Positions 1 to 39,539 of a stretch of 64,000 nt of DNA are shown here, in pieces. The translations under genes were made by a program, and so were the position numbers. The DNA is taken from contig CM026426.1 of NCBI GenBank assembly GCA_014871385.1, positions 35,961,918-36,025,917 of the forward strand. The letters run 5' to 3'. This DNA comes from Ceratodon purpureus. Its lineage: Eukaryota > Streptophyta > Bryopsida > Pseudoditrichales > Ditrichaceae. Under the pieces are notes generated by a model, which was given only the letters and a program-made list of their open reading frames with translations, was not told the origin of the DNA and made no database searches. The first letter of the stretch is position 1; each line of letters begins with the position of its first letter.

Positions 1-3000
1 AAGAAGTCGCGCATGATGGTCCCCCTCTGCAGGATGGTCTCCATGGCGAAGGTTAGACCAGTGGGCGAAATGGGGGTGCAGCACTTGGAGCGGGAGTTCG
101 TGAAGGGATATAGAGATGGGGACCGCGTTATGTACATCTCCATGTACAACAATGAAGAGCAGACGAAGGATGTTACGGCGGATGTCATGGCTACTTGGAG
201 CCCTTTATGGAGGGCCGCGAATGAGCATTTTGAAGATGAGATCCGTGGCGACAAAGACTGGATGCAATTCTCCAACAAGATGTTTTTTGTCTGGGAAGGT
301 AATCATCGCCTGGCCGCATGGCTCCGGCATATCAACAAGCATCATGCGGACGACCCATCATGGCACATATCAGTGCATTGCATTGTACTTGAGCCACGCG
401 GCCATGTGGGCAATCTCCTACATGTCATGCATGACATTAATTGGTACGTTGTTCTGTATTTGTATATGTTTGACCATTATATATTTTACGTATGTGTTAA
501 GAATAATTCTTCTAAGTTCTTGATTTGATATTCAGGTCGACGGAGAATGACCACGTGAAGGGTAACCTACCAGCAAAACTATTTCGAATCCGCTCATTTG
601 GAATGATGAAGTTGGAGGAGTTTAAAGACCTCCTGAGTGCAGAAGAATACGATGCTTGTTTGAAACACAAGCCCCCTAATCCGTCGTGGTTCCCTTTGAC
701 TACAAGAATATTCATCGCATTTCTGTACCGAGTAAGTTTCACGCCCTTCACCTTGTCCTAATTTACACTCTGATAAAGTGTTTATTTTTCTAAAACATGT
801 TTGAGTTTCGGAACAGCGCGAAATCGCAGTGGCCTCTGATGAAGCAGCGAAGGCCTATGAGGAGAAGACACCAGAGGCGGACTGAACTGCAAGTGCAGTT
901 TGGGATGTCATGAATGAGGCAGCTGAAAGGATGGTCGAATCCATCAAGAAGAAGGACTTCACGAAGTACCTTGCTATCGCAAATCCCAAAAACGGTGACA
1001 ACTTCCTCAATGAGGTAAATCCGATGGTCTATAAAATATTTCGTATCATTACATTCTTATTTTGCATCTCATATTGTCTAAAACGATCATTATTCGTGTA
1101 GATCAATCGGCATTTCAGTGAATTCTCAAAACCAGAGATGACCCTTGACAAGCTACAGAAGATTGTGCCAGCGGCAGTTGAGGCCAAATACAAGGCTCGC
1201 TGGTTAAGGTGGTGGAACTCATCTCCGAGTTCCAGAGTATCTTACAGATTTCTACCCCTCGAATTCAAGGAAACGGACCTCGACCCCTGGTTGAACAAGG
1301 CTTCATTCTGGGCAGGGGTATAGTTTCTTTACAAACGTCTTCATTCCATTTACACGTTGCTTCCTTCTCTGTCTGCATTTTAACTCGTCGGTACTGAAAT
1401 GAATTGTTTATTACAGTTAGAGGAGGCTGTCGTCAATGCAGTTGAAGACATTTGCAAAACGGAGAATCTGGATATCAATTGGAGGGATTTTCCTGATATC
1501 CAGGAACCGGGCGCTTATGTCGAGAGTTCACGTATTCTTTTATGGGACAAGGCCTTTCCTACGTTCATTGGAAAAAAGGTTGAAAAGGCTTTCGACAAGA
1601 AGTCCAATTTCGCAAAATTCCCTGGAACTGCATACGTTGTTAAGCGGGTTACTTACTGGTATGATTCTTAACTTCATCACAGTCGCCCTACATAATGGGC
1701 TTCATATTTTTCTCGGTAACTAACCTTGTACATAATTGTTTCCTTAGGTACTTCAAACGGGAGCTTCTTCCAAAAGGCGCCGTCAAGTTCCACCAGCTCC
1801 CTAAGTACTTCAGTGCTTGGACGTCGAAAACCTCGAGCCAGTGTATCTATTCTCCACAACAGTTGAAAAGGTACAAAGCTCCTCACTTGCTTGAGGGATG
1901 CTGGTATCTTGATTGTTTTCGCGGTTTCACTATTGACTCTGAGGTGGACATCAAGACTTTACATGATGCCGGTGAGGTAGTGGCCGAAGAAACGGTGGAT
2001 GCTACTGAAGATGACAATGGCCCTGAAGACCAATCATCGGCTCCTCCACCGAAGAAAGGGAGAGCTCGGCGGCTGAAATCTTTGCGATCACATTCACAAG
2101 CTTCACAGCAAACTGGTGCGGCGTCTTCCGCTCCAGAGCAGACGGCTCCAGAGCCCTCTCCGGGTAATGTGGTTACGAAGCCTTCTTCAACTTCTTCACC
2201 GGGTCCTTCCTCGATCAGTGCTTCGGAGATCACCAGAGGTCTCCTTCAGCAAAGGAAAGCCAAACTATATCCTCAAGCAACTTCTTCCGCTGGAGCTTTG
2301 ATTTCCACACATGTTTCCGTCTTCAACTCATCTGTGGATTCCATGTTACGGCGAAATAGGAGACTGGAGAGAAAAGGTGGCGACCCGGATTGGATCAAGA
2401 CTCAAGACTTCATTCGCAAGGTTTGTTCCTATATTTTGACATTTAATGGATTCTGCCACCTCCACTCGCTATGTAGTTACTAACTCTCCTTTCTTGTTTC
2501 CTCAAGTTTGGAGCAGGCCGCGGAAACAGAGTTCCGGACCGGTGCAAACAAGAGGACCATCTGGGAGTCGACTTGATCATTGCCGACATCCTTGAGAATC
2601 TTCCCGTCCCATCCGTTTCCGTTCCCCCCACGAGTATTCCGCCTTGGAACTCTCGCGAGAAGGATTATGTGTTCGACATCTTCCGTTTTGCAGATGAATT
2701 CCTGCAGAAAGATGGTGCCCTCTGCCTCATCTACAACACTGATCAGAAGCTGGCTAAGGATATCGACGAAGAAGCTGCTGGTGGTGACTACGTGCTCTTC
2801 AAGGACTGGTGGGGCGTCAATGTTCTCGGCCTCACTTCTCCTACGAACCCCGAGAACTTGGTACTTTTCCTAAACATACCCTTCTCTTTACTTACTGTTA
2901 ACCCTTCCGCTTAATTTTACTCACTACTTTTGCTTGACTGCAGACTATGCGGTTCTGGATTCGCGTCTACGTTCGTAGTGGCAGTACTTTCTCCTTCCAG

Positions 3001-3823
3001 ACGAAGAAGGAAGAGCTGATACATGGGCTCCTCAACATTACCGAGAGTGATGCCATTTTCAACCTCACCGATGTGGACTCGCAGCTCATGAATGGGGAGG
3101 TGCCGTGGAGAGGCCCAAGGGAGAAATCCCCTGAGATGATGCAGGGCATAATTGAGGAGCTGTCAAAGCCCGGCGACATAGTCCTTGATTGGAATGCTGG
3201 GACAGGTAACTCTTCTTACATATCTCTGCTTAATTATTCCTCTCGTTTTTCCCACAGTTTCTCATTTCTTTGTTTCTCTCCGAGTTTCAGGGGCCTCCAT
3301 CAAGGCCGCCCAGGCTGTTGGTCGTCACATTCTCGCTTTTGAGAATGACGAAGCCATATTCAACGCCCTTCTCAAACCATCCGCCATGGGTCCTCCTAAA
3401 CATCCAAGGCCGGCAGCAGCAGGCGAAGCGCCTCCAAAGAGAGCAAGACCTGACAAGTGGTGTAAGTCTTCTATTCTTTGTTCAAATTATCCAATCATTA
3501 CTTCTCTTGCCAGCTCTACGTACTCTATCTAACCACAATCCGTTCTCTATTGCAGAGTAGTTTCAGCAACACCAACACGTGGGCCAAGAGCAGTGTCCAC
3601 TCCATCGTGGCGTCTTCATTCCAGCCCGATTCAGCCTTTCATACTTCCGGACTACGCAGAGGACTTAGCACAGGCGTTTCAATCTGGAGCCCTAACATAT
3701 GTTCCTAGTCGGCCAACTACTTTTGATCCCAGGGCCCTTCTATTCGTCGATGACGAGGCGGTAGAAGGAGATTCAGAGTCATCTAGTTCTGAGAGTGGAA
3801 GTAGCGATGGTAGCATGTTCTGA
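1..3823 (+). CDS. Intron-rich ParB/sulfiredoxin-like plus DNA-methyltransferase-like fusion gene, 5' partial, one premature stop
   Basis: Ten exons join through consensus GT-AG introns. The first opens in frame at the window edge; ATGs at 34 and 43 precede the fold, but the exon may be internal, so the 5' end is open. Exons 1-2 encode a ParB/Srx-like domain: an RPVGEMGV start and the box WEGNHRLAAW, matching the GxxRxxA nucleotide-binding motif of the family. Exons 3-6 encode a variable middle part ending in a Ser/Pro-rich linker. Exons 7-9 encode a Rossmann methylase-like domain in beta-class order: a putative motif IV region, then motif X, then motif I (DWNAGTG, split by an intron). Exon 3 has a TGA at 883-885, one C-to-T step from CGA, so this copy is probably not fully translated. 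The last junction is unclear: the predicted splice gives a stop, while another frame continues to 3823 with an acidic serine tail. The partner and target are unknown. DNA binding or modification is inference from the domains. Confidence 0.72.
34..731 (+). other. ParB/sulfiredoxin-like domain (exons 1-2)
   Basis: Exon 1 runs to 443 and exon 2 spans 536-731; joining them restores a TGG codon, which supports the splice. The key motif EGNHRLAA lies at about 295-320. ParB N-terminal domains use a comparable GxxR box to bind CTP, and Srx-like relatives bind ATP, so nucleotide binding is the family expectation. The exon 2 helices (AKLFRIRSFG, LEEFKDLLSAEEYD) may be a helical extension. The link to ParB is by eye and needs a profile search. 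Confidence 0.55.
2507..3461 (+). other. Beta-class N4/N6 DNA-methyltransferase-like domain (exons 7-9)
   Basis: Exons 2507-2860, 2944-3205 and 3291-3461 form the domain. The strand VDLIIAD is where motif IV (D/N/S-PP-Y/F/W) is expected, but is followed by ILENLP. An IPPW tetrapeptide lies about 20 residues on. Neither is a canonical catalytic motif. Motif X (EKSPEMMQGIIEEL) leads into motif I (PGDIVLDWNAGTG) and the second glycine-rich stretch IKAAQAVGRHILAFEND, the usual SAM-binding arrangement. SAM binding looks preserved and catalysis doubtful. Confidence 0.6.
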
Positions 3824-5344: not shown

Positions 5345-5402
5345 TTCTGTGCTCTCCATTCTGTGCTCTCCGCTCTCCGCTCTACGCTCTCCGCTCACAT
5401 AC
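5345..5402 (+). repeat. CTCTCCGCTC-type simple repeat
   Basis: Degenerate tandem units of GCTCTCCGCTC/GCTCTCCATTCTGT. Related sequence recurs at about 11941-11976 and, inverted, at about 41598-41618. Confidence 0.5.
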
Positions 5403-8400
5403 GAACTTTCCCCGCTCTGAGCCTAGCACACTTTATTACTCCCCCTGAATTCGACTCTATATCCAAGTTTGGTGGCTGACAGTTCTTTCGCAAAGCAAGC
5501 AGTTTATCAATTCATCCGGCTACGACTATGTGTTCTTGGATTTGAGCAGGCTGGAAGTATCCTACAATGATTTTCGAGGAACACCAAAGGCATTGACTAG
5601 AGGGACCATAACGCCACAACCACGCCCTAGCAATGGTGACAAGCAGTATATTAAAAGAATCATTGAAGACGATCGACTGGGTCACCAGCCGTGCTAACGG
5701 TCTGCTATGCTCCCTGCACACCTCATTCCTGAGTCACTTCTAGGTAGAAGGTTCGCAAAGTTAACCAAATAAAACCAATACCCTCACTTACAGTGTCCTC
5801 TCCCACACACGTTTGTTCGAAAAGCATGTAGACCTAAACCCAGAATCTAGAATGTCGGAAATTAATGGGTGGGTTCAGAAGCTTGGTTACCTCGATAGAT
5901 GGTTGGTGATCTTCTTCACCTCCAACGCTAGACGGTCCTGCGTCCTCCATTCTTCGAGGGTGCTTAGGAGAAGGGGTATCGGATACGGAATGCTACGTCT
6001 TGGTACTCGAGGGCAATTCTAGTAATGCTTCCCATGCGTACGCAAATGTAGGGGTCATCTCGTCTGGAACATATTCTAGACTACTTTTAAGAAGTACCCC
6101 TCGGCCCAAAGGACGCAAGCTACAGAGTAGAGGATGCCGAGCAGTTCATATATAGCACATAAGGAGGAGAAGAAGATAGTAACAATGATTCCGCTGCCGC
6201 TCAGAGATCTATGAAACGCAGTCATCAAATGTGATATAGATACTAGGGGTAGCTTTTATTAGTTACTTCTAGACCATTATGAATTGAGTGGTTCCAATGT
6301 AACACTGAACTATTTCATTCAATTTTTGAGGATAATATTTTAGGAAGTTGCTGTCATCAGAAGTCGTGACTGTCGTATCGCAGCCTCTGGATCAATTCTG
6401 CTGATTAGGGCGGGTACGTGTACTAGTCGCTATGTATTAAATTACAGTTGCCAAACTAAGTATGTACAGAGCGTCTCATTAAGATTGAACAGTGCCATAG
6501 CTTGCAGATTCGGTTTCCTTCTTATTCCACCTCTCGTAGTTAACCACTCGATGATTCTATTTGGTGTCATTCTTAACCACTCGAGAATTCTTATGCGTCC
6601 CTCTTTGTTTTTTATTCCCCTTTACAGAGCTCACTGTTGCAGGTGCCGCTTCATCTGAACACGATGGCGTATCTTTGTGCAGACTCGCATTCCGTTCCTA
6701 TTACCTTTCCTTTGGGTGTAGATGGCCGTGCTATGATCAGTTCTACCACTCTTAGTCTTCGGTTTCGGTTTTGGGAGGAATCAGTGCATGTAGAAGAGGA
6801 GTTCTTTGACGACATCACTGGCGCTCTCTCGCATGCCGTAGGTCAGTTGTCAACTCAGAATGAGATTGGAAGGTTCTGGATGCTCAAACGTGGAAAGTAT
6901 AGAGTTTACGGAGTTACCGAGTCTCTACTAGGTGCCTCTACTGAATTGTTGACGCCCCGATCGTCCACAACAGTGTGCATTGAGTCTGAACCCTTGTTGA
7001 GGAAGGTCAAGACCGAGCCAGGTCTTCAGACCATCTATGAGCTGAGTGATGACTCCGATAGTGAAAAGGCAGAAGAGATTCCGGTGATCCATGAGAGCAT
7101 AGAGAAGACAGTGCCAATTGCAGTTGATACTCGTGAGGAGGTGGTTGTCCCTGTGAAGTCTTCGGTTCCTTCTACTGTTACAGTCTCCCCTTCAGAGAGT
7201 GTCGTCCAGTGCCTCATGAAGCTGAACGTCCGTAAGAGGTCCAAGAGTGTTCTCTCGCGCATTGATTTCAATGCAATTAGAATGCAGGAAGTTCAGTTCT
7301 CCCCACCTCAGTACAACGGCGATGTTATTTTTGAGTTCCCACCAGTAGGTGCTCATGGCCATCACTTTGCTGCAAAGCAATTACGTGGAATGGATAGAAA
7401 GTACGACGGCCACCCCTGGACTCGAACTGTGACTTCTAACATTCAAAACGACCTCAAGCTGACATTCCGTTCGTCGTCGTGCCTTGGCCATCTCCACTGT
7501 GACAATGCCAAATGTGAGTTCCTGACACGTGAAAATAGGACTGTGCTAGTGAACGAGACTGAGTGGGATGGAATTTCCGAGAAACTGTTTGAGGTTGGAT
7601 CCACTCAGCCGCATAGTTCCACTGTAGTCTGTAAATCTTGCGGAACTCCACCAACCTGCGTTGCACTTTGCCCTGCAAAGATTTACTATGTCACTGCCGG
7701 ACCTCACATGACGAGAGCCTGAGTTCACCTGGGAACTCACGATCATCCAGTAAAGTGCGGTGAGAACCGCAACTTCGTCGAACATACGGAAAACTTGATC
7801 AGGGAGCAGGTGGAGCGAACGCCGACCGCCACTAATTCCGCCATCGTCCTCAAAACTGCGAAGGAGCTGCTAGGCCCGTTACTTCTGGCCAAGGAGGGTG
7901 AACCGCAGAAGATTCTGGAATTGGAAAAGCTCGAACCAATATTCGACCGCTGTAAGCACCTCTCTTCCCCAAACATTCGAAATTGCATTACATCGTTCAA
8001 GGCTGTTAGGCGCTTTGGGACCATGGACAGCATCAGAATGCTGCGAGGCTTCAGCAACTGGAAGTTTATCCAAAACAACTTGTTTCCGGGGCAAGGCGAT
8101 GATACTGCGAAGGTGTATGTCTTCAAGATGTCAGAGGTAGGGCCGGGTAGTGGAGTCGATTTAGTTAAGCGTATGCAGACCGGCGGTGACTTGGAGAACG
8201 CGTGGATCATGTTTGACCACGTGAGGCGAGTCAGGGACTGGGTAACAATGGCCTGCCACGTCTATAACCCCACCTATTGTCGGATCATGACAATGGCCGC
8301 CTGCGACATGCAGTCGGAGGACACGGCAGCCTAGTCCGTCCTGTGGAAGAATTTGAATGCTATCATGGAGAGTCACAGGGTCGTCAATGTTAACTTCCAC

Positions 8401-8757
8401 CGGTTTATGGCTGACGGTGCCCAAGCCAACTGGAATGCAGTTCGCATTATCTATAGGAGCGGAAACGCCTCCGAGATGATGATAGACAGAGAGAGAACAT
8501 GCCTATTCTATTGGAGGCAGTCTTTGGAGCAACATACAAAGGCTAACATTCGACCGGACCTCTGAGCGCAGCACATCAAACTCTGCCAGCAATACAAGAA
8601 CGCGACGACAATGGCCGAAGCTGAAACGAAGTTCTTGGCAATCCGAGCATGGTGTATGTCATCTGGCGCTGCAACAGAAAAAGGGCTCTCAAATCTGGAA
8701 ACGTGGCTTTTGTTTTGGCAGTACCGCTATCGCCAATGGGGAGGCTTCATGGAATTG

Positions 8758-8862
8758 GTAAGCAATCTCTTGTCCTTTCAATCTTTGTCGCATCTAAAGC
8801 AACTTACCCTATAGTCAGTTATCGAATAGTCAGCTATCCAACCTAACCTCGAATGTTTGCAG
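8758..8862 (+). other. Probable intron in the transposase gene
   Basis: It begins GTAAGC after WGGFMEL and ends TTTGCAG before NHNEEELAEMP. At 105 nt it is divisible by three, and removing it drops a stop-containing stretch while keeping the frame. Confidence 0.65.
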
Positions 8863-10086
8863 AATCACAACGAAGAGGAGCTCGCAGAGATGCCGTCCTG
8901 CAACCTTGTTGAATCAATCCACAACAGGTGGAAGCAACAGTCCGGAGATCGGGGCAGCGACTTGTATGTCGCAGCTGTGGACAACTTTGTACGAGCCTTC
9001 ATGCAATGCGTTGCCTACTTCCAGTTCCTGAAGGGGGAGCGTCCCGGGAAAGGTCCGTGAAAAGAAGAGCTCAAGCTCCGACGGGCACAGAGATCTGCAG
9101 CGAGGACAGGAAACCCAAAAGTCCTGCATGAAGCGATTCTGAACATGCCAAGAGCGGACGAATGGTGCACCAGGGACCCGCATCTTGAAGGGGAGGAGGT
9201 CTGTGTCTCTCTGAAACAAAAACCTGATGTTGCCTTTGGAGATGAACGGGAGTCTCATAGGCCAGACAAGATCACCGTGTCAAGACCTCGTGTCCAGACC
9301 AGATGTGCACGCCGGGAGAGCGACTATCCTCCGACGGTGGTAATAGCAGACTCTCCGACCTTCACCCTGAGCAGTCTCCACCTCCACTCGACTACCATCA
9401 CGTCACTTCAGTTGAGGAGACCGCCTACAACCCTTCCGAGTGGCACATTGCACGACTTCCTAACACATCCGCTAAGGCTTGCTTCGCCCAACATGCTGTA
9501 ACCAAGAACAAATGTGTGGCACGGATTGTGCAGCACGGGAAGAGCACGGCTGTGCCCACATACACAGGTCCCATCAAGAACTACAAGAAAGACAGAATAG
9601 AGACTCATCAGTTCTTTTTCTGCAATGACGACATTGACAGGTGCGTCAAGGGTAGCAAACGGAAGTGGGTCCTATCAGTGCCAAAGGTACCTAACAACTG
9701 GCCGGTGAAGCTTGGGACCAAGTTGACAAAGAAAGAGATCCTGTCTCTAGAGAATGCCGGCTTCAGACTCCCGCAGCAGAAGGAGATGTCACCGAGAAGA
9801 CTCTTTCAAGACCAGACAGCAGCAGTGGACTTCTCAGCCTACCCTACGCCGGCAAACCCGGATGAGTTGCCTACCCGGCGATCAGGAAAGCACATCCGAC
9901 GGAACAAGAAGGCCCCGTCGACGAAGCATAGCAATAATTGTGCCTCTGCCTTAGCATTGAACGCGAAAGTCAGCAAGTTGTGCATGCTGCCTGCCCCAGC
10001 CCTGGGATGCATCGTCACATTGGACTCTGGGAAGCTTCCAAAGGTACAGCAATATTACCTGACCATTTCGCAACACCCTGCCTGCA

Positions 10087-10155
10087 CTTGCCCGTATTTC
10101 AAGGAGATGGCAATTACGGCACTTGGGAAGCGGGGTCAATGGGCTAATTGTAAGC
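10087..10155 (+). other. SWIM zinc-finger segment of the transposase
   Basis: The CxC...CxH pattern (CTCPYF ... NCKH) is typical of the C-terminus of Mutator/FAR1-type transposases. Confidence 0.7.
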
Positions 10156-10289
10156 ATCTGTATTACCTGTTCACTGTAGTTTGCGGTCTTGAATCAGAGT
10201 CGGATACATTTATTCATGCAGCTAGTTTTAGCTTCAACGAAGTCAAGTGAGTCCTGGAGAGTGGCCTTCTCAAGTACTTGGACAACTAG

Positions 10290-11340: not shown

Positions 11341-11705
11341 GTCAGAGGCATCTGAGGAGGTTACCGGTTGAAGGTTGTTGTAATATGAAAGGTCAGTTTA
11401 CCATGCTTACAAAGATACAAATTCTCAAGTATCATCTGAGGAGGTTACCGGTTGAAGGTTGTTGTAATATGAAAGGTCACTTTAGTATGCTTACAAAGAT
11501 ACAAATTCTCAAGTATCATCTAAGGAGGTTACCGGTTGAAGGTTGTTGTAATATGAAAGGTCACTTTAGCATGCTTACAAAGATACAAATTCTCGAGTAT
11601 CATACAAGAGTGACAAAACTTGTACAAGACAAACGTTTTCGAATTAGAACAGGAGGCCGCTATCTCGTGACCTCAGTGCATGTCCCCAAAATAGGCACCG
11701 GCTGA
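11319..11705 (+). CDS. Possible repeat protein, 128 residues
   Basis: An ATG-started frame of 128 codons, two thirds of it the 84-bp tandem repeat. The peptide unit is basic with a CC pair and no recognised domain. The frame may be open only because the repeat length is a multiple of three. Confidence 0.2.
   Translation: MKFDVLNRQRHLRRLPVEGCCNMKGQFTMLTKIQILKYHLRRLPVEGCCNMKGHFSMLTKIQILKYHLRRLPVEGCCNMKGHFSMLTKIQILEYHTRVTKLVQDKRFRIRTGGRYLVTSVHVPKIGTG
11349..11600 (+). repeat. Three 84-bp tandem repeats, open in one frame
   Basis: Units start at 11349, 11433 and 11517 and differ at only a few bases. As 84 is divisible by three, each translates to the same 28-residue block (HLRRLPVEGCCNMKG, then KIQILKY) inside an ORF at 11319-11705. 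Real peptide or accident is undecided; no family is recognised. Confidence 0.8.
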
Positions 11706-11940: not shown

Positions 11941-11976
11941 TGCTCACCGCTCTCCGCTCACCGCTCACCGCTCGCA
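11941..11976 (+). repeat. CCGCTCACCGCTC simple repeat
   Basis: Tandem CGCTCWCC-like units abut the 3' end of the minus-strand coiled-coil pseudogene. They are related to the repeat at 5345-5402. Confidence 0.55.
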
Positions 11977-27100: not shown

Positions 27101-27229
27101 GGTGCGCCCTCGCCACCCAATAGTTCACCTTCATACATCCTCACATCTCTTCGGGCACGCTCCCATAGTTTTCCTTCAGCATCCAGCAATTAACACAAAC
27201 GGGCTGCCTCATCATCAACTGCGTCTCAT

Positions 27230-28270
27230 TCACTTGAATACCCCTTAAAAATAAAAGGGCCTTCCCAATTTTGATCCAGTGCACGTCGTTTGCCAGGCAC
27301 ATACATCTTTACCGTACAATTGATTTCAAGTCGCGGAAACCTCTCGGTTTTTCCCTTGCGCTTCGTGTAATCCTCCTGCTGTTCTCTCTGAGCCGTGGCG
27401 ATGTTCACTGCTACAGCTTTGTGTACATCTTCAAGAAGCTGAACTCGGTCCATAACCATGGAGCTCATCTCCTCCACGATAGCATGCTCATCGATAACTT
27501 CCTGGAACTTTTCCCTGATGTTGTCTAAGGAGAGTCTCGGAGCTCTACCTGTGAAAACAAAGTAGGGAGAGAATTTTGTACTGCCTTGATTGCTGAAGCG
27601 ATAGCCGTACAATACACGCCCCACATGGCGATCCCATTCATCTCCCCACTAGCTTGCCATTGCCGTTAATCCAACTTTCAGCGTTTGTACAAAGCGCTCG
27701 GCCATGCCGTTGCATTGTGGCTAGGCATGGGAAGTTCATTCATGCTTTATGCCATTGTGCTCACAGAGCTCATCAGACTCTGCGCATAATTCTGATCCGT
27801 TATCCGTCAATACTGCTCGTGGCACCCTATATCGACAAATCACTTGCGTTTCAAAGAAATCTGCGGCCGTGGCAGCATCGTGGCTAGTCACCTGCAACGC
27901 CTCTACCCATTTTGAGAAATGGTCGATGGCTATTAACACATACTGGCATCCTCTCTCGGTGATTTTTAACGGCCCTGCAGTGTCAATAGCGACACGATAC
28001 ATGAAATCCACCACCGGGATGCTATGTAGCTGGGCATTGCCGGACCTGAGACTCCCATGCATTTTTGTTAACTGGCAGTGTTTGCACTCTCCTACCACCC
28101 TCCTGACAGTCACTACTTGATCAGTCCAGTAGTAGTTTCGCATAATTGCTGCCAATGTGCGGCCTTTTCCTGCATGTCCCAAATCTTCGTGTACTTGTCC
28201 TACCACCTCTCCACGCTCTTCTAGCTTTGGCACTATCAAACCATCTTTGCAAATCCGACCCTCGTCCAAA
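27230..28270 (-). other. Element A integrase region (fossil)
   Basis: The zinc-binding region (HEDLGHAGKGRT ... CKHCQLTK), then the catalytic core blocks AIDTAGPL and LTDNGSE, then a C-terminal part. The order RT - RNase H - integrase places it in Ty3/gypsy. Confidence 0.8.
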
Positions 28271-28789
28271 TGGTACCGTGACTGAATCTGTATGTTAATG
28301 CGTTTCCGTTCCTTTCGATTCTAGCTTTCCTGCATGTGGTTCGTGATTATAAAATCCATAACATTGGTATCACGATGGATGTCCAACTCTGCCTTGTCCC
28401 TAGCTGAGTTCTCGGCCCTGCTTGATGACCCCTCGGCTTCTCGAATTAGTCCCCACAGCAAGTCTCTCGAATAAGCCTCGTATGGTCGTTTGCGACTACC
28501 ATGCTCTTGCTGCATGCATGCGTCCATGCTATCCAATGAAACTGGCTCAGATTCCATACTGGTCTCCTGCTCAGGTTGGTTGGGCGGATCGGTCGATGTC
28601 TTTGTCGTCACCGAATCATAAGTCGTGAGCTCTAGATTTGTACATGGGAGAGGGGAGTACGGCTCCTTCCCAACATTCTCCTCGTCACTGATCCGATCCA
28701 ACATGTGCACTCGATGTACGTGATCGCCAATCTCTGCCCCATTTTCTGGTGGTTGGCTGCTTGCGTTTCGGTATAAAGCATTTGCGTTA

Positions 28790-29100
28790 GAATGCTTGGC
28801 TCCAGAACTGTGAATAATTTTAAAGTCATAATCTTGGAGCATCATTATCCATCGCCTTCTTCGGCCGTTGGTATCTGATACGGTTGCCAACCACTCAAGT
28901 GGTCGGTGATTTGTCCTGATGGTGAACTCCTTGCGGTAAAGATACTGCCGAAAGTGCATTACTCCCCATATGAGTGCGTAACATTCATCCTCCATGGGGT
29001 GGTACTTCCGCTGTATGGCAGTTAGTCCTCTGCTAGCATAGGCCACCGGATGCTCTCTTTGACTGATCCTTTGCGACAATACCGCACCCACACCTGTCTG
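28790..29100 (-). other. Element A RNase H region (fossil)
   Basis: Blocks VAYASRGLT, YHPMEDECYALIW and TNHRPLEWL are typical of Ty3/gypsy RNase H. Confidence 0.8.
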
Positions 29101-29239
29101 CGACCAATCGACGTCAAGGATGAAAGGCAGTCTGAAATCTAGTCGGATGAGTACCGGTGCTGTAGCTAATCTCAGCCGTAGTGCTTCGAATGCATTCTGG
29201 CGGTTAGCGGTCCATACAAAAGGTTCGTCCTTCTTTGAG

Positions 29240-29760
29240 AGTTCAAATAATGGTGCCGCAATCTGGACATAGTCCCCGAATATATATCCTATAGTAGCCA
29301 GTAATGCCCAAGAAGCTCCTTATATTAGTCACATTCTTCGGTAATGGAAACTGCATAATGGCTTTGATCTTTTGCGGACTGGGTGCACAGCCGCTTCTTG
29401 ACACGGAGTGACCCAAGAAAACAAGCTCCACGAAACCAAACCTGCATTTATCAGGATTGAGCCGAAGCTGGGCATTGTGCAACTTCTATAGCACCCGTTC
29501 AATGTGCCGAAGATGCTCCTCCCAACCTTTACTGTGAATATTGACGTCGTCAACAGACACCTTGCACATCTCGTTTAAATCTTCTTCCAGCACTTGGTTT
29601 ATGATTCGTTGGAAAGTTGCTGTAGCATTTTTGAGTCCAAAGGGCATTACTGTCCACTCATACAGCCCTCTATTTGTGATGCTAGCCGTTTTCTTAATAT
29701 CAGGCTCATGCATTCTCATCTGCCAGAATCCTGACTGTAGGTCTAATGAAGAGAACCACT
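29240..29760 (-). other. Element A reverse transcriptase region (fossil)
   Basis: VMPFGLKNATATFQ and the active-site region VSVDDVNIHS are visible, then LNPDKCRFG and FLGHSVS. SVDD stands where Y/F-x-DD is usual. Confidence 0.8.
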
Positions 29761-30599
29761 GTCCGTCCCCTAACTGGTTAAGACATCGCTAATTAACGGC
29801 ATTGGAAAACTATCCTTCCTTGTCTGTTGTTTAAGAGGCCTATAATCACCACAAAAACGTTTACTGCCATCCCTCTTGGGAGGCAATGTCACTTTAGTTG
29901 CATATTCTGACTCACTGCTCCTCATCTTCCCAATCTCACATAGTGCTTCAATTTATTTCTGTACTTCCTTCTCCTCATAATCAGAAAGTTTGTTGGGAGC
30001 GCTTCTGCAGGGATAGAATCCATGGGTGTCTATACGGTGCTCTCCCACTGCACAATGACTGAATTCTGATTTGTCGACAGCAAATGCATGGCTGTTTCGC
30101 TCCAGTACCTCCCATAAAAGAGTCCCCTATATGGATCCGAGACTTAATGCTCGCCCACCGGTCAGTTGAGGTCATGTCTTTTGGTGTAGGCGGCGTACTA
30201 TTCTCCCCTTGCAGTTTTGGCTTTGCCGACCATCAAATCCAATCAGTGTAGTCATCGTCTTCTGCGGTAGAATTTAAAAATCTTTAGCGCTTGCTCGTTC
30301 ACGAGCAATCTGGTCATCTCCTGCGCCGTATTGTCATCGATCCAAGTAGTGAACTCGTCTGGCTCTATTTCAGCATCGAGTATTGCGCTACTGATCAGCT
30401 CGCGCATTATCTCTTCCTAGCTATCAGGTGATTCGCATTCTCCATCGCTGGATCCATCCAAACCACTGCTCTCCTGGGTCAAGGTATTCACCTGATATGG
30501 GAGACCATCCATGGTAGCTTCTGAACTCACACCCCCTTGCACATATATTTTGTCCTGTGCACAATCAATGACGGCCCGGGTAGCTAGCAGGAAGTCGTG

Positions 30600-31330
30600 G
30601 CCTCAGAGTACTTCATATGCATGGGTATGAATCACCATGACTGGTATAGTGCATTTGATTGCTCCAATGTTTAAGTGTACCAGTGGAATTTTTCCCACCG
30701 CATCCTCAACATTCCCTGATGCTGTGCAGTATTTGTCGCCACTTACCATGCTATCTATCAGTCCCAGTCGTCTGACTGCACCGAGTGAGCATATGGTGAT
30801 TGATAATCCCGTATCCACTCTAGCCATGAGTTCTCTCCCTTCTATTCGAACCTCCACACATAAGACTCCCTCACTCGTGCTTCGAAGGTGACACTCAGAT
30901 CTGATATCACTCGAGGTTTCCATGCCCATCCTCGATTCTTGCTCAGTTAATCGATGAATCTCATTCAATGGAAGCACCTGCTCGTCCTCTCCTGGGCCTC
31001 TGCGAATTTGTATCAAAGACTGCTCGAAGTCTACAACCGCCCCCATCTTTCCTAGGAAATCATATCCCAATAACATATCGTATGAGTTTGTGGAAGCCGC
31101 TAGGAAAGTGATGGAGCAAGATACACCTCCAACTGCAACTGTGGTCCTAAGCCTTCCTAAGGCCTTCTCTATTGCCCCGGACGCGGTCCTATACAGCTCC
31201 GCACCTGTTACTTCTTTCAACATGCCGAGCTCACGAACAGTGTCCGCAGCCAACACAGACGTGGTTGCACCGCTGTCTACTTGCCTGCTCACCTCCTGTC
31301 CTGCAATTTCTACCCTAAGATGCACCGCCT
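30600..31330 (-). other. Element A: two retropepsin-like domains in tandem (fossil)
   Basis: Two aspartic-protease-like segments follow one another: one with QVDSGATTSVL and a YDMLLGYDFL end (about 31.0-31.3 kb), and one with RVDTGLSITIC (about 30.6-30.85 kb). The flanking patterns (RELG / RRLG, then YRTASG / YCTASG) are alike, so this looks like a duplicated domain. Most Ty3/gypsy elements have one. Confidence 0.65.
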
Positions 31331-31779
31331 TGCCATTTCCCATGCTGAGCAACAGCTTAGTCACTTCCTCTGAGCTCATGGAATTAACAGGTGGTGCCTC
31401 GGTGATGTCAACAGGATGATTTTTGGGTGCACTTCGATTTGGCTTCACCCTTTTGATTAGATCCTCCAAGTACTCCATCCCACCAAGGAGTTTCATAATA
31501 CATTCCAGTGGACTCAGCGTCACCCGCCCCTTCATAAAATGTGATAGGATCTTTGATTTTTCTGCTAGGTCCCCTAAACCCTTGAGACTTGTTGCTTCTA
31601 GTAGCTCGGCCCTAACGCGAGGCAGGGGGTCATTAGTGCCAAATGGCGTGCGTCTTTTTGGCAATCGCGCTGTGGTGTGCGTGTCTGCCAAGTTCAGTTC
31701 CTGCGTGAGTTCCTCTAAATAATCTGCACCATCGTCTACAGTTATCCGTTCCGTTAGATGAGTAGCGTGTGCTTCTAAA

Positions 31780-31960
31780 GCAGGACGATGTTGGCATTCA
31801 TGATCGAAGTGCCCCATTCCTTTGCATAAACCGCATCTTACTCCGCACGCGATAGTGCGTTGCCCTGGCCCCTTGCACTTCTCACATAACGTATCCTTGT
31901 CCGGACATTCTAGGGCCCGATGGCCTTCCTTATAACACCTGTGGCACAAGAATGGACTGC
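31780..31960 (-). other. Element A zinc knuckles (fossil)
   Basis: A CCHC-type knuckle (CHRCYKEGHRALEC) followed by further Cys-rich units (CEKCKGPG, CGLCKGMGHFDHEC), as in gag nucleocapsid. Confidence 0.8.
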
Positions 31961-32618
31961 GAATACTTATCCGTCTCTCACTATTCTCCGTTGGTGTGGT
32001 GCCCACGATCTTTTGTACAATCGCGGTCATTGCGCTGCTCAGCGTTGCTAGATGGCGTTCTGTCTCGGATGCTCTCTGCAATATAACTGCATTCTCCTCT
32101 TCTTCGGGCAAGGCCTCGAATGGCATGTCACCAATCTTGCTTAGCCCCTTCTTTATTATAAGCACATTCGTTAATGCAGCATCAATATTCGCATAAGTAC
32201 GACCAATGAATGCTCGCTGTAGTTCAACCCTTAGTCCGCTGATGAATCTTTCCACCTACTCCGGATCAGGGATTTTACCCTTGTCAAACCAGCGTTCCAA
32301 GCGGTCATAATATGCTTGAACACGCTGCCTGGGTTCGTGTTTGATAGCGTCTACCTTCCCTTTTACTTCCACAGCATCATACTGAAAGAACTTCCCTTTC
32401 AAAGCTTCCTCTAAATCGTCCCAGGTGGTGAGTGGAGGTGTATGTCGTTTGACAAACTCTTTCGCCTTGCCACATAGATTGAGTCGAGTCACCTTGAACA
32501 ATATGTCGGATGAGTAATCCCATATTTCTGCCGTAATCTGCAGCCTCTCTCCCCAGTCGTACACATCTTCGTACTCCTTCCTGGCAAAGGTCTCGTCAAC
32601 GCCTTTCGGATTAGTCAT
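31960..32618 (-). other. Element A gag capsid-like region (fossil)
   Basis: Retrotransposon gag pattern: AKEFVKRHTPPLTTWDDL, LKGKFFQYDA, YYDRLERWF. Confidence 0.75.
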
Positions 32619-33194
32619 CTTGCTGATATGTCCCGATACTGTTCTAATCCTAGTTGTTGTCTATGGATATACCCTTACTGTATGGCCGTTACTTGACAAA
32701 GAGCGTAGCTGTGCTATGATATTCGTGAAACAGGCCTGACACTCCCTGTTCCACACAAATGGCTCATTCAACGTGGTGGCTATGCTCCACATGGGCGATA
32801 CATCTAATTCTACTCGCAACAGGGGTTGCACGATTCTCACAGTGTTCAAGAAATAAAACAAAGCTAATCTATTCGAAGGAGGATTGCAGTCTATACTAAT
32901 CAGTATGTAAAAAGAAAGTGCGTGTGAAAAGTGAACACTAGACAGAGCCATGTTTATTTCAACGCCTTTAAACCGGCAACCTCACCTTGCATGAAGATGA
33001 TCCTAAGTAGCAGTAGTATTATCACGATCAGCACCATACGGCTCTTCCACCCGTCATGGTATTCCCACATTTGTTCAGCCGGTGATGCATTGTGCGGACA
33101 CGAATGAGTAGGTATCTGTTGACGCCTCAATCATTTGGATCTGGGTGCTCCTGTCATCTTTAAATTTTGTCTCCTACGACTTGATTTGTAACCT
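32619..33194 (-). other. Element A leader between the primer site and gag
   Basis: No domain seen. It lies in the 5' untranslated position of the element. Confidence 0.5.
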
Positions 33195-34399: not shown

Positions 34400-35450
34400 T
34401 TTTGGAAGATCAGGCAAAACATGACTAGGATCAAATACATATTTCCTCAACAAACTCACATGAAATACATCATGTATCTGCCAATCCTCAGGCTACTTCA
34501 GTTTATAAGCAACTTGTCCTATTCTCTCAATAATTTCAAAAGGACCACTAAACCGAGGCGATAACTTCCTTGACTTACCAAGCTTGAGTCCAGATCTTTT
34601 TGGAGTTACCTTCAAAAATACTTTATCACCCACTTCAAATTCACGAAAGATTCTTTTTCTATCAACATAGTGTTTAGCTCTATCTTAAGCACTCTTCATA
34701 GCCAACTTTGCCAACTCTCTAATTTCATTCATTTCCTTAATCATTTCAATAATGCTTTCAAAATTAGTAGTAGGATTAGACAGTGTAATGGGAGTTCTAC
34801 ATTCTTGACCATATAAATCATAGAATGGACTTACTCCAATACTACTATGAATATGATCATTGTAAGCAAATTCAATTTAATCCAACCACCTATCCCATGA
34901 GTGTTGTTTCTTACCAACATACATTCTCAACATATCTTCAAGAGTCCTGTTAGTTCTTTCAGTCTGTCCATCACTCTCAGGATGATATGCAGTAATCAAC
35001 TTAATTTTGGTCCCACACAATTTGAAAAGTGTGGTCCAAAATTCACTCACAAACTTACGATCTCTATTACTTATAATCTCACGCGGAATTCCATGGTGTT
35101 TGAAGATCTCTCTCATAAATAACTCAGCTACCCCATAAGCAGTTACAGTAGTAACTGTAGGAATAAAATGAGCTATCTTAGTGAGTCTATCTACAACCAC
35201 CATGATGCTATCAAAGTTACTTCGAGTCTTAGGCAATCCAACAATAAAATCGATACTGACCGATTCAAATTTCAAGTTAGGAACACTAAGAGGTTGCAAC
35301 AATCCAGGGCTCTTCACTTGTTCAGACTTAGAGACTTGACATTTCAAACATCTTTCAATATATTCTTTGACATCCTTTTTCATTCCTGGCCAGTAATAAT
35401 GACGCTTGACTGCCATATAGGTCTTTTGAAAACCTGGATGGCCTGCTATT
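34400..35450 (-). other. Element B integrase region (fossil)
   Basis: Zinc finger [11 protein letters not shown] ... CLKCQ, catalytic blocks [10 protein letters not shown] and [13 protein letters not shown], and a GPFEIIERIG-type C-terminal block are visible. Confidence 0.88.
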
Positions 35451-35649
35451 GGAATATCATGAAGGTTATTCATAATATTGAGTCTATATTCCCCAGCCTT
35501 GGGAATACAGACTCTGTCATTATAATATAAAACTTCATCTTTCAATTCAAAAGACTTAAACCTATCGATTTCATTCACAGTTCTAGCTTCCTTAGACAGA
35601 CTTTCAAATAGAATTTTAAAGAAATCATCATTAGGATAAAGCAATTTGA

Positions 35650-36130
35650 TTTCATCCATCAGAGAATTTCTGATGCATGAAATAGCATTTGCTAGCGGTC
35701 TTCTAGAAAGAGCATCAGCCACCACATTTTTCTTACCTTTAACATATTCAATTTCAAAATCAAACTCTTGTAACAATTCCATCCACCTACACTGCCTTCT
35801 ACTCAAATTTGATTGGGTTGATAAATATTTCATGGACTGGTGATCGGTTTCTATCTTAAACCTTACTCCTAGTAAATAATGCCTCCAAACCTTCAAAGAA
35901 TGAATGACTGCAAGTAGTTCCTTCTCGTGTACTGGATAATTTAACTCAGAGGAATTCAATTTACGAGATTCATATGCAACTATCTTTCTATCTTGCATCA
36001 AAACTGCACCAATAGCTAAATCGCTAGCGTCGGTACACAATATTATGTTTCCTTTCAAGGAATCCATAATAATCAAAACAGGAGTTTGGGTTAATACTGA
36101 CTTCAAAGTCTGGAAACTCAAGTCACACTC
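35650..36130 (-). other. Element B RNase H region (fossil)
   Basis: [37 protein letters not shown] and [10 protein letters not shown]. Confidence 0.88.
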
Positions 36131-36149
36131 AACAGTCCAATCTATTTGA

Positions 36150-36930
36150 TTACCCTTTCCTTTCAACAAATTGGTCATAGGAGCAGCTATTTTAGAAAAT
36201 CCTTTGACAAATCTTCTATAATAACTTGCAAGACCTAGGAAACTTCTCACTTCACTCTTGCCTTTTGGTATTGGCCACTCAGCAACTACCTTGACCTTCA
36301 TAGGATTTACTGAGATTCCCTCATCAGAAACGATGTGACCAAGAAATTCAATACGAGAGGTAAAGAAATCACACTTACTTAGCTTAGCATATAACTTATT
36401 CGCTCTCAGAATTTCAAAAACTTGTTTAAGATGTTTCTTATGTTCTTCTACATTTTTAGAATATACAAGAATATCATCCATAAATATTAACACAAATTTA
36501 CCCAAAAGATCACGAAATAAGGAATTCATCAAAGTCATAAACGTAGCAGGAGCATTTGCCAGTCCAAAAGGCATTACAACATACTCGTAATGACCTAAAC
36601 GCGATCTGAAGCCTGTTTTCGGAATGTCAGACTCTTTAATTCGAATTTGATGATAACCACTCTTCAAATCTATCTTGGAAAATATTTTTGATCCATATAA
36701 GTGATCAAAAATATCATCAACACGGGGCAACGGAAACCTATTCTTGACAGTGAGTTTATTAAGACCACGATAATCTACACATAATCTTAATGATCCATCT
36801 TTCTTCTTAACAAAGAGGACCGGGGCACCCCAAGGTGATTTGCTAGGTCTAATGTAACCTTTGTTCAACAAATCTTTCAATTGATTCTCCAACTCAACAT
36901 TTTGAGTTAGAGAATGACAATAGGGTGCCC
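36150..36930 (-). other. Element B reverse transcriptase region (fossil)
   Basis: [25 protein letters not shown] and the active site FMDDILVYS are intact by eye, followed by [11 protein letters not shown]. Confidence 0.92.
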
Positions 36931-37289
36931 TAGCAATAGGAGCGGCATCGACAATTAAATCTATAGCGTGATCAACATCTCTCCTAGGTGGCAATTCCGT
37001 CAACTCCTCAAGAAATATATCTTTAAATTCATCTAAGAATTCATTCATTCTTTTGTTATCCTTACTTTCATCCTCAACTTCACTCACATGTATTAGAAAT
37101 ACTTCGTGGTTTTTCCTAATACATCGTTTCATTTGTAAATGAGAAAGCATAGGGACCCTTGGTGAAGATCTCTTACCTCTTATGGTGAAAGATTCCCCGT
37201 TGTGAAGCTTTCTATGGACTGCTCCCTCCTTGCATGCAATCCATGCGTCCACTTGCTTCAGCCACGCCATCCCCAATATCACCTCATAT

Positions 37290-37720
37290 CGTGCTCCATT
37301 CCAAACTTCAAAGTCCACCTCAGTATCTACACCTTGAATGTTCACAAGAACCTTCAACATGCGGTGAGTGATGGAACTAGTTTGGTTGTTTGGTAACAAA
37401 ACTGAGCAAGGTTTGATAGGAACTAGGGGAAGTCCTATCTTGTGAGCAAATGAAGTTGATATCATATTGTGAGTGCTACCTGAATCAATAAGAATTATAG
37501 AAGAGAAGGAAGAGTTCAGAAAGCCTTTGATTTGGAGCACCTTTGAATCTTGCTCTACTTCCATGTTCATAATAGCAGCTGAGACAGTTGGGACAACATT
37601 CTTGCATGGCTCTTCATCAGATGTATCTTCATCTCCTTGCTCCACCTCCAAAGCTGCTGTCTTCCTTTTGAATGATGGACACTCAAAGCTTCGATGTCCA
37701 GGCGTATGACACCTAAAGCA
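37290..37720 (-). other. Element B zinc knuckle and protease region (fossil)
   Basis: CCHC knuckle [14 protein letters not shown], then the aspartic protease site [11 protein letters not shown] and ILGMAWL. Confidence 0.88.
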
Positions 37721-37779
37721 AAGACCTTTCTTCACATGCTCCCCCTGCTCTTCTTTGCTCAACATGGCACGCCTGTGTC

Positions 37780-38739
37780 CTGGATTGAACTTGGAACCTT
37801 GAGAGGGATTAGAACCTTGAGAGAACCTTGAGAGGGATTAGAACCTTGAGAGAACTTTGAAGACTTAAAGTTATTAGACCGATTGAACTCAGAGGGCCTC
37901 TTTCCCAACAGACTCTTGTTCTTCTTTAACTTGCTATTAACCTCCCTCTCAAAGTTCAAAGCCAAACCATAAGCATCATCTAGAGTCCTTGGATGATATG
38001 CATTGACTTTAAATCTAATTGAATCCTTTAAGTTACGAAGAAAAAACTCAACCCTATCACTTTCACCCCAATTGGGAAAATAGACAATATGTAAATCAAA
38101 CTTTGACTTGTATTGGGTTACAGACAAACTTCCCTGTTTCAAGTCATAGAGCCCTTGGCGCATGTCTTCTCCGTAATTCCCAGGAAGGAATTCTTGAAGA
38201 AACAAGTGTTTGAAAGTGCTCCGATTTGACAGAGGTTGAAGTCCACGATTCTCTCGGTCGTTCTTCAAATTATCGTACCACAAACGAGCTTTGTCTTGAA
38301 GACAAATCACCATAGCCTTGATCTTTTCATCATCTTGGTAATCTAAAGTGAAGAAGTCCTCCAGCATGGAAATAAAAGACTTGACCTCCTCCGGTTTGCA
38401 GTTCCTTCCTCCAAAAGAAGGCTTGAAAGGATACTTCCTCAAGTCCTTCAAAACTTCAACTCTTCTAGGACCAGGACCCCTCAACGTAGATGTTGCAACA
38501 GACTCTATCTCTCTTGACCTAACAGGTAAAGATGAAGGAGGGCGAGGAGTGTCTGAACGAACACCTCTGGGGAGAGGTGGAGCTCCAGATTGTACAGAAT
38601 CCCCTCTAGGAAGAGGATGAGCTCCAGATTGAACAGAATCCAAAATTTCCCTCATGGCTTCCATCACTCCTCTCATAATCCTCTCTTCCAAACCCGCAAG
38701 AGGATCAACTCTCCCTTCCAAACCCTGCAGAAGATCCAT
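37780..38739 (-). other. Element B gag capsid region (fossil)
   Basis: Starts near 38739 (MDLLQGLEGRVDPLAGLEER). Gag blocks include FFTLDYQDDEKI, ARLWYDNLK and FLQEFLPGNYGEDMR. Two short duplicated Pro/Arg-rich units (SVQSGAHPLPRGD) lie near the N-terminus. Confidence 0.85.
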
Positions 38740-38744
38740 ACTGA

Positions 38745-38756
38745 TCTGATACCAAT
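38745..38756 (-). other. Element B primer-binding site (initiator Met tRNA)
   Basis: The minus strand reads TTGGTATCAGATC just inside the 5' LTR, matching the plant iMet primer TGGTATCAGAGC except for one base. Confidence 0.85.
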
Positions 38757-39539
38757 TGTAACAAACCTCCCAACAGGTTTGCCACCAACTCTCAACAAAA
38801 AGACAAATAAGACAAGGGAAAGATAAAAACTCAATAGAACTACAAAGATCAAAATATATTGACTGAAGGCTCACCACCCAACCATAGAGAAGTGATCACC
38901 AGAGAAGTGTCTCACCATCTCCCCCCCGAGCCTTTATATATGAGTTCCTTTCCAAAAGGAACTACAGTCTATCTTAGGCTATGTCCCAGAGTCTAGCCTA
39001 TTCATAGTTCATTCTATCTCCTTTACTCCTATATCTGGAGTAAAGGTAATCCACAAATCCTTCTAGGTTCTTCTATCTCTTCAACTCAGAGACTCTTCTA
39101 GATCTTTCCATCTTCTTTACTCCTATATCTGGAGTAAAGGTAATCCATAGATCATTCTAGATCCTTCTATCTCTTTAACTCAGAGACTCTTCTAGATCTT
39201 TACTCCTATATTTAGGGTAAAGATAATTCACCACTATCTTTACTCCTATATTTAGAGTAAAGCTAATTCACTACTATCAGTAGTCTAATTCTAGTGTACC
39301 TCATCTTGAGTTGTCTAATTCTTGTACACATGTTCTCAATCTTGGAGTGGTCTGACTCCAATGCACTAAATATAGAGCTGTCTAACTCCAGTGCACATGT
39401 TCTCAATCTGGAGTTGTCTGACTCCGGCCCATCCATTCTCAACTGGGAGTTGTCTGACTCCTTTCATCCTTTGCTTACACACTGTCTAATGTGATTAGAA
39501 GATTTCATTCATCCATCTATCAATGTAAGTTACATTTCA
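38757..39539 (-). repeat. Element B, 5' LTR (right in window)
   Basis: 783 bp, about 98.7% identical to the other LTR. As the 5' LTR it would carry the active promoter. Confidence 0.93.
38932..38941 (-). promoter_or_regulatory. TATA box in the 5' LTR of element B
   Basis: The minus strand reads CATATATAAAGG, followed by GCTCGGGGGG, a plausible LTR promoter core. Confidence 0.6.

Follow-up and report, generated by a model that had tools for sequence, protein, structure and literature searches.

What would a gene joining two protein parts best known from phages and bacterial mobile elements do, interrupted by introns, in the genome of a moss? The question arises at the left end of a 64,000-bp stretch of Ceratodon purpureus DNA (the window; assembly GCA_014871385.1, contig CM026426.1, positions 35,961,918 to 36,025,917). 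At window 1-3823, on the + strand, a first-pass annotation made from the letters alone had proposed a fusion of a ParB-like domain with an N4/N6 DNA methylase, acquired horizontally or belonging to a eukaryotic mobile element, and possibly reading or writing DNA modification. We find that the gene is almost certainly the right-hand (passenger) gene of a 16.2-kb DNA transposon that carries class-specific arrays of palindromes. With about an even chance of being correct, our analysis suggests that the protein is an accessory factor binding its own element's array, for anti-silencing or transposition.

A passenger gene of a DNA transposon

When the window copy was aligned with nine others, similarity stopped at about window position 5413 and extended far upstream. 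The element ends were read in three copies, each with 8 kb more sequence. In the window's copy the element runs from C6:35951095 (C6 being the 110.5-Mb contig of the window) to window 5413, a length of 16,236 bp, and its ends form an imperfect inverted repeat of 53 bp that is 85% alike. Target duplications of 10 bp (GCTCTGAGCC, AAGTTGATGG and ATAGAGACAC) flank all three copies tested. The right border reads:

5345..5413, + strand: right terminal inverted repeat, with outer end AACTTTCCCC
5414..5423, no strand: 10-bp target-site duplication GCTCTGAGCC, repeated directly left of the element

Mutator-like elements (MULEs) have terminal inverted repeats and a target duplication of about 9 bp (8-11), and both traits are found here. 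The element consists of a leftward SWIM-type gene, a tandem array in the middle, a short rightward open reading frame (ORF) and then the long gene under study. The left gene, divergent from the studied gene and on the opposite strand, carries a SWIM-like motif, C-x-C-x(n)-C-x-H, read by eye; in copy c2_19 it has long frames of 712 and 475 aa, and it is more broken in the window's element. A Pfam scan of six pieces of this gene and of a second SWIM-type gene in the window gave no match to MULE or other transposases, and the left gene is called transposase-like because of its motif, its position and the element ends.

The short ORF (L010:9321-9731) encodes four YMPTSPV-like repeats (Y-x-P-T-S-P-x) in the window's element; of the 18 copies compared, 16 have four or five, and two are frame-shifted. 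These repeats resemble the heptad of the RNA polymerase II tail. The ratio of nonsynonymous to synonymous substitution rates (dN/dS) is 0.11-0.18 in frame and above 1 in both other frames (eight pairs), which indicates purifying selection. The possibility that this exon forms the N-terminus of the long protein was dropped, as its terminal TAG is the first stop in 13 of 18 copies and no conserved donor was found; a separate ORF, or an isoform, is the present reading.

Searching the 362.5-Mb assembly with the DNA of window 1-1000 identified 40 copies or more, spread over ten numbered contigs and 79-100% identical (best 40 scored of 806 candidates). C6 holds 23 of these 40 (binomial p 4e-4), an excess that is biased, since the query itself was C6 sequence and scoring was limited to the 40 best candidates. 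Among the 18 copies compared, all nine introns are intact in nine, and five to eight of the nine in the remainder; in five (c6_46, c6_79, c10_3, c12_8 and c12_2) the frame has no interruption between the first window exon and the stop, and 9/9 introns are intact. Exon 1 has a dN/dS of 0.15-0.38 in the proposed frame versus 0.77-2.95 in the other two (eight copy pairs), and the frame of this first window exon is under selection. Since phages and bacteria are where the two motifs are chiefly known, one might suspect contamination from such a source, or motifs that align by chance; the kept introns, the copies on ten contigs and the frame-specific selection make this vanishingly improbable. The membership of a eukaryotic mobile element, one of the two origins first proposed, is strongly supported by the ends, the target duplications and the copies.

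For three pairs, the ParB-like region and the middle of the protein each have a dN/dS of 0.13-0.14. Such low values would also be expected of a former element gene that now serves the host at some locus. We consider domestication of this kind very unlikely, as copies with element ends and arrays explain the conservation and two stops interrupt the window copy. Between the window copy and c6_79, intron divergence (0.002) is below the divergence at synonymous sites (0.023).

Palindrome arrays and their match to the N-terminal half

The tandem array lies between the two divergent genes, at L010:6596-9068 in the window's element. Tandem Repeats Finder (TRF), applied to ten copies, detected arrays in nine, built of three kinds of 128-bp unit and one kind of 86-bp unit; common to them all is GCAAxTxTCGGCCCCGACAxTTGGTCGGG. 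Ten further copies were read over the 1.2 kb upstream of the gene, and overall 18 of the 20 copies examined have arrays. The palindrome of c3_3 and c8_3 is the same as in the TRF arrays, c3_7 and c6_101 carry ATTCGG-type variants (with both arms changed in c6_101), and the arrays of c4_8, c12_2 and c2_08 contain CCTACTGTC-N6-GACAGTAGG, in c2_08 within a 204-bp unit. Unit lengths range over 86-204 bp (86 and 128 bp in one class; 128, 129 and 204 bp in the other), and the palindrome of 22-24 bp is kept while the surrounding unit turns over. Both of its arms changed together between the classes CAAGTGTCGG, AGCATTCGG and CCTACTGTC. In nine of ten unit types, 0-4 of 1000 mononucleotide shuffles equalled the unit's longest inverted repeat; in c10_3 and c12_8 this longest repeat is a second one, not the shared palindrome. 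The T1 palindrome, CAAGTGTCGG-NN-CCGACACTTG, occurs at 291 places in 362 Mb, and its reversed control at none. A comparison of two lists places 48 of the 50 distinct T1 places listed 1-4 kb upstream of listed copies.

Besides the palindrome, the 128-bp units contain another inverted repeat (GGCCCTGC...GCAGGGCC, GGCTCTGCC...GGCAGAGCC, GGCTCACCCC...), which shows paired changes, together with a T-run. In the 86-bp unit type the palindrome was seen and this second repeat was not. A search of the window element's array against Rfam gave no hit at gathering scores.

The grouping of copies agrees for exons A, B and 2-6, and the methylase exons group differently in c12_2 and c6_57. Copy c12_2 combines a T2-like N-terminal half with a T1-like methylase, the switch lying near window-equivalent 1700-2000; c6_57 combines a T1b-like N-terminal half with a T2-like methylase. 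As judged from these groupings, recombination between copies has swapped the two protein halves. In all 18 copies with both array and gene data (c3_3 and c8_3 left out) the palindrome class equals the N-terminal clade, and this includes both recombinants, where the array class follows the N-terminal half, not the methylase. The match is consistent with a matched pair of protein and palindrome and not proof of one, because the array adjoins the N-terminal exons.

If the protein does recognise its own element through the array, the ParB-like N-terminal half would read the palindromes, and the methylase-like half would serve as a scaffold binding S-adenosylmethionine (SAM) or DNA, not as an active methylase. 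Most likely, the protein would mark the copies of its own element, shield them or lift their silencing, or else bring the transposition machinery to them. As a further step, it may extend outward from the array over the rest of the element, in the manner of bacterial ParB at parS.

Alternatively, the arrays could belong to the SWIM transposase or to an RNA or chromatin function (hairpin transcripts, enhancer repeats), the ParB-like/methylase protein acting otherwise, for example on the host. The location of the array between two divergent genes would suit such a role, and the second inverted repeat, with its paired changes and T-run, is what a structured transcript would have. However, arms that change together around a spacer that is not kept also fit a DNA site bound by a dimer, and the 86-bp unit type shows the palindrome without the second repeat. 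We regard this alternative as possible, if on the unlikely side.

Several results weigh against a protein that reads its own array. Linkage alone could make array class and N-terminal clade agree, and the true site might be the second inverted repeat, or the array might work at the RNA level. Copy c1_21 has two palindromes and c6_34 a single one, and neither has an array. The right arm is decayed both in the two-unit array of c6_9, which also has one near-identical full palindrome, and in the decayed ATTCGG-type array of c6_57, and one arm has diverged in c10_3, c11_5, c12_8, c2_19 and c3_7. In c3_7, the exception in the shuffling analysis, 60 of 1000 shuffles equalled the longest inverted repeat. 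At C2:344723 and C2:344849, 126 bp from each other, lie two perfect T1 palindromes with no listed copy beside them. Regarding the N-terminal half, no ParB profile was matched in Pfam, PHROGs or NCBIfam; the best NCBIfam match was MoaC, with an E of 0.005 in one of 11 copies, and a search of PDB sequences returned two chance-level matches and no ParB. A single-sequence structure model of window exon 1 was poor (predicted local distance difference test, pLDDT, 48), and its VIA matches were only common ferredoxin-like arrangements.

Gene structure and state of the window copy

The gene has ten exons and nine introns in the window, and all nine introns are GT-AG, as the first-pass annotation had seen. 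Introns measure 83-105 bp, with a G+C content of 0.26-0.38 versus 0.43-0.57 in exons. The two peptides on which the fusion had been proposed are encoded as well, WEGNHRLAAW near the N-terminus and, towards the C-terminus, PGDIVLDWNAGTG, which is split across 3169-3205 and 3291-3292. The features are, in order:

1..443, + strand: exon 1 in the window, starting 141 bases upstream (L010:9860-10000); candidate ParB/sulfiredoxin (Srx)-like region
292..321, + strand: WEGNHRLAAW box, which an alignment pairs with AGNH in a phage protein that carries a ParB-like annotation; suggestive only
536..731, + strand: exon 2
817..1014, + strand: exon 3
883..885, + strand: in-frame TGA of the window copy in exon 3, not in the open-frame copies
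1102..1317, + strand: exon 4
1417..1658, + strand: exon 5
1748..2420, + strand: exon 6, with a Ser/Pro-rich linker at its end
2507..2860, + strand: exon 7, first part of the methylase domain
2585..2596, + strand: motif IV position, D-I-L-E in the window copy
2944..3205, + strand: exon 8, methylase domain with motif I PGDIVLDWNAGT
3291..3461, + strand: exon 9
3567..3823, + strand: exon 10, acidic tail and stop codon

An earlier junction between exons 9 and 10 broke the frame and was dropped, the intron 3462-3566 being taken instead. The protein is 1,050 aa or more in length. A TAA sits 7-9 bases before window position 1. Because of this codon and the TGA at 883-885 the window copy is unable to make the whole protein; with two nonsense codons, it is dead. 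The proposed fusion in a spliced gene stands in so far as both halves lie in one open frame in the five open copies and the methylase half has its profile match (below); the ParB label is the part that no profile supports.

The N-terminal half

A nucleotide box of G-x-x-R type belongs to the ParB/sulfiredoxin fold. A 41-aa query around the WEGNHRLAAW box was compared with 50,697 phage records, and the best of ten matches was an annotated ParB-like partition protein (42% identity, tblastn E 5, not significant), whose AGNH resembles the EGNHR of the moss protein. Aligned by hhalign, the two share 76 columns with a probability of 36% and a P of 4e-4 for a hit chosen as best. Against plasmids the same query matched nine records, none annotated as ParB and six without an annotated feature; the whole N-terminal half gave four weak matches in phage tblastn. 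Searches of viral contigs for relatives of either half found none, and, as regards the proposed horizontal acquisition, the phage, plasmid and viral-contig searches yielded no close relative. One viral contig matches the DNA of WEGNHR exactly over 17 bases; this was taken as chance, the peptide being absent from the ORFs of at least 60 aa listed there.

The profile test is a weak one, because the phage protein annotated ParB-like is itself without a Pfam match. In the model of exon 1 the order strand-helix-strand, insert, strand-strand-helix-strand could, at low confidence, be ParB/Srx-like; the 50 entries that VIA listed include no ParB or sulfiredoxin chain, which excludes nothing. A ParB fold of the N-terminal half, as judged from the box and the model, is likely but unproven, and the label ParB-like, confirmed by none of the profile or PDB sequence searches, stays suggestive.

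The methylase half

The methylase relationship proposed at first is supported, with a match to PF01555 (N6_N4_Mtase) of 36.6 bits versus a cut-off of 26.7 (E 6.2e-9). Motif I, LDWNAGTG, aligns with LDPFMGSG and similar sequences of phage enzymes and is of the SAM-binding D-P-F-x-G-x-G type; a second subfamily has E in place of D. By sequence this half is a genuine PF01555 relative by descent, which does not imply enzyme activity. The catalytic motif IV of beta-class N4/N6 methylases follows the pattern (D/N/S)PP(Y/F/W). The 18 copies have D-I-P-E (15 copies), D-I-L-E, D-I-P-K and D-V-P-E (one each), so that DPPY/F/W, with its second-position proline and its aromatic residue, is missing from all of them. 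The phage methylases found by similarity and aligned have DPPY/F in 7/7. Two of the phage methylases were scanned with Pfam, one stand-alone and one with a restriction-endonuclease-like domain, and ParB was found in neither.

For a brown-algal homologue it has been proposed that the protein marks the transposon encoding it. An active N4/N6 DNA methylase of that kind would agree with the PF01555 score above gathering, with the kept motif I and with a dN/dS of 0.24-0.59 in exons 7-8 (five pairs between subfamilies). The degenerate motif IV argues against it, and selection on these exons is less clear: the +1 frame of the same five pairs gives 0.62-0.88, a contrast between frames weaker than that of the N-terminal half, and in exon 7 the within-subfamily pair c6_34/c1_21 shows the reverse, with 1.42 in frame versus 0.43 in the +1 frame. 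For the three pairs that gave 0.13-0.14 in the ParB-like region, the methylase part has a dN/dS of 0.48-0.85, a value that is uninformative between close copies, in which recombination has removed most of the differences across this part; in the tail, the ratio is 1.32 for the pair c10_3/c6_101, which involves a copy with indels. The assembly has further PF01555 matches, 54 being listed at E <= 0.01 (150 scored of 772). The only other locus of this family that was read, L059 (C8:9595650-9596450), has D-Q-P-Y as its motif IV and one stop in its frame. Loss of the aromatic residue is therefore not common to every relative in this genome, a point in favour of an active enzyme, though with a stop inside that locus. 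Taken together, an active methylase appears quite improbable, and the methylase half is, on its motifs, probably dead as an enzyme. Because motif IV is degenerate in all 18 copies, the suggestion that the protein writes DNA modification is unlikely for these copies.

Other features of the window

Window 6660-10250 contains, on the + strand, another SWIM-type gene, which has diverged, has several stops in its frame and is 77% alike over 259 bp to the element's leftward gene; it lies outside the studied element, because the latter ends at 5413. Repeats of CTCACCGCTCTCCGCTC type at 11948-11975 resemble the subterminal repeats of the element, possibly marking the end of a second SWIM element, and 84-bp direct repeats in about three copies, 95-96% alike, are present at 11349-11603. 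Retroelement-like frames were recognised by eye at 27226-32660 and 34877-38895 (zinc knuckles, protease, reverse transcriptase, RNase H, integrase-like) and at 48561-49670 (gag-like at best).

Comparison with known systems

Bacterial parS is a 16-bp palindrome from which ParB spreads. Here, too, a ParB-like candidate stands beside an array of palindromes; in contrast, it has no ParB profile match, the palindromes are longer and the setting is a eukaryotic transposon. A bacterial-style partition module would be the most literal version of this likeness: a ParB-like clamp would load on parS-like arrays, spread, and keep silencing off or hold copies together, with protein and palindrome as matched pairs, the methylase as a pseudoenzyme and the YMPTSPV protein as a transcription arm. 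We consider it unlikely. Fusions of ParB with N6/N4 methylases have been described in phages and bacteria (accessible part of PMC12704722) and would combine the same two kinds of domain, provided that the N-terminal half here is indeed ParB-like.

Algal transposons have already been reported to carry ParB-like/methylase accessory genes; what is new here is the class-matched palindrome arrays. According to the accessible part of PMC12477816, Sola1-1_Ec32 of Ectocarpus is a 21.5-kb transposon with a ParB-like/N4-N6 methylase accessory gene of 1,104 aa, and green and red algal relatives are cited there to Iyer 2011 and Petroll 2025. As far as that text describes it, Sola1-1_Ec32 is likewise a large DNA transposon whose accessory gene lies on the strand opposite the transposase (here transposase-like) gene, with a methylase domain of the same general kind; the ParB-like N-terminal half is claimed there and suggestive here. 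The host is an alga there and a moss here, and the moss element differs in its SWIM-containing partner, its 10-bp target duplications, its not being called Sola1, its degenerate motif IV and its class-specific palindrome arrays, the two being likened by description, not by sequence. A literature search that reached few subscription papers showed, among the results listed, no description of such genes in mosses or charophytes.

An accessory protein that binds the array of its own element would work much as VANC does. The VANC proteins are anti-silencing proteins of Arabidopsis VANDAL elements, associated with arrays of a YAGTATTAY-type motif (accessible part of PMC5735166). There, too, a transposon accessory protein goes with short motifs in tandem repeats of non-coding element DNA, the repeats turn over fast, and motif and protein change together between families. 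The same part of that source does not describe VANC as ParB- or methylase-like, and its motif is a 9-base directional word versus the 22-24-bp palindromes of the moss element; the comparison is one of working mode only, not of homology. The guess of self-binding or self-marking made for algal transposons gains a concrete target in palindrome arrays that match the N-terminal class, which argues for DNA binding, not methylation, as the kept function. If this is true, sequence-specific self-recognition by a transposon, known from VANC in Arabidopsis, would extend to a bacterial-type protein. The closest precedent for the working mode is VANC, and for the gene it is the accessory gene of Ectocarpus Sola1.

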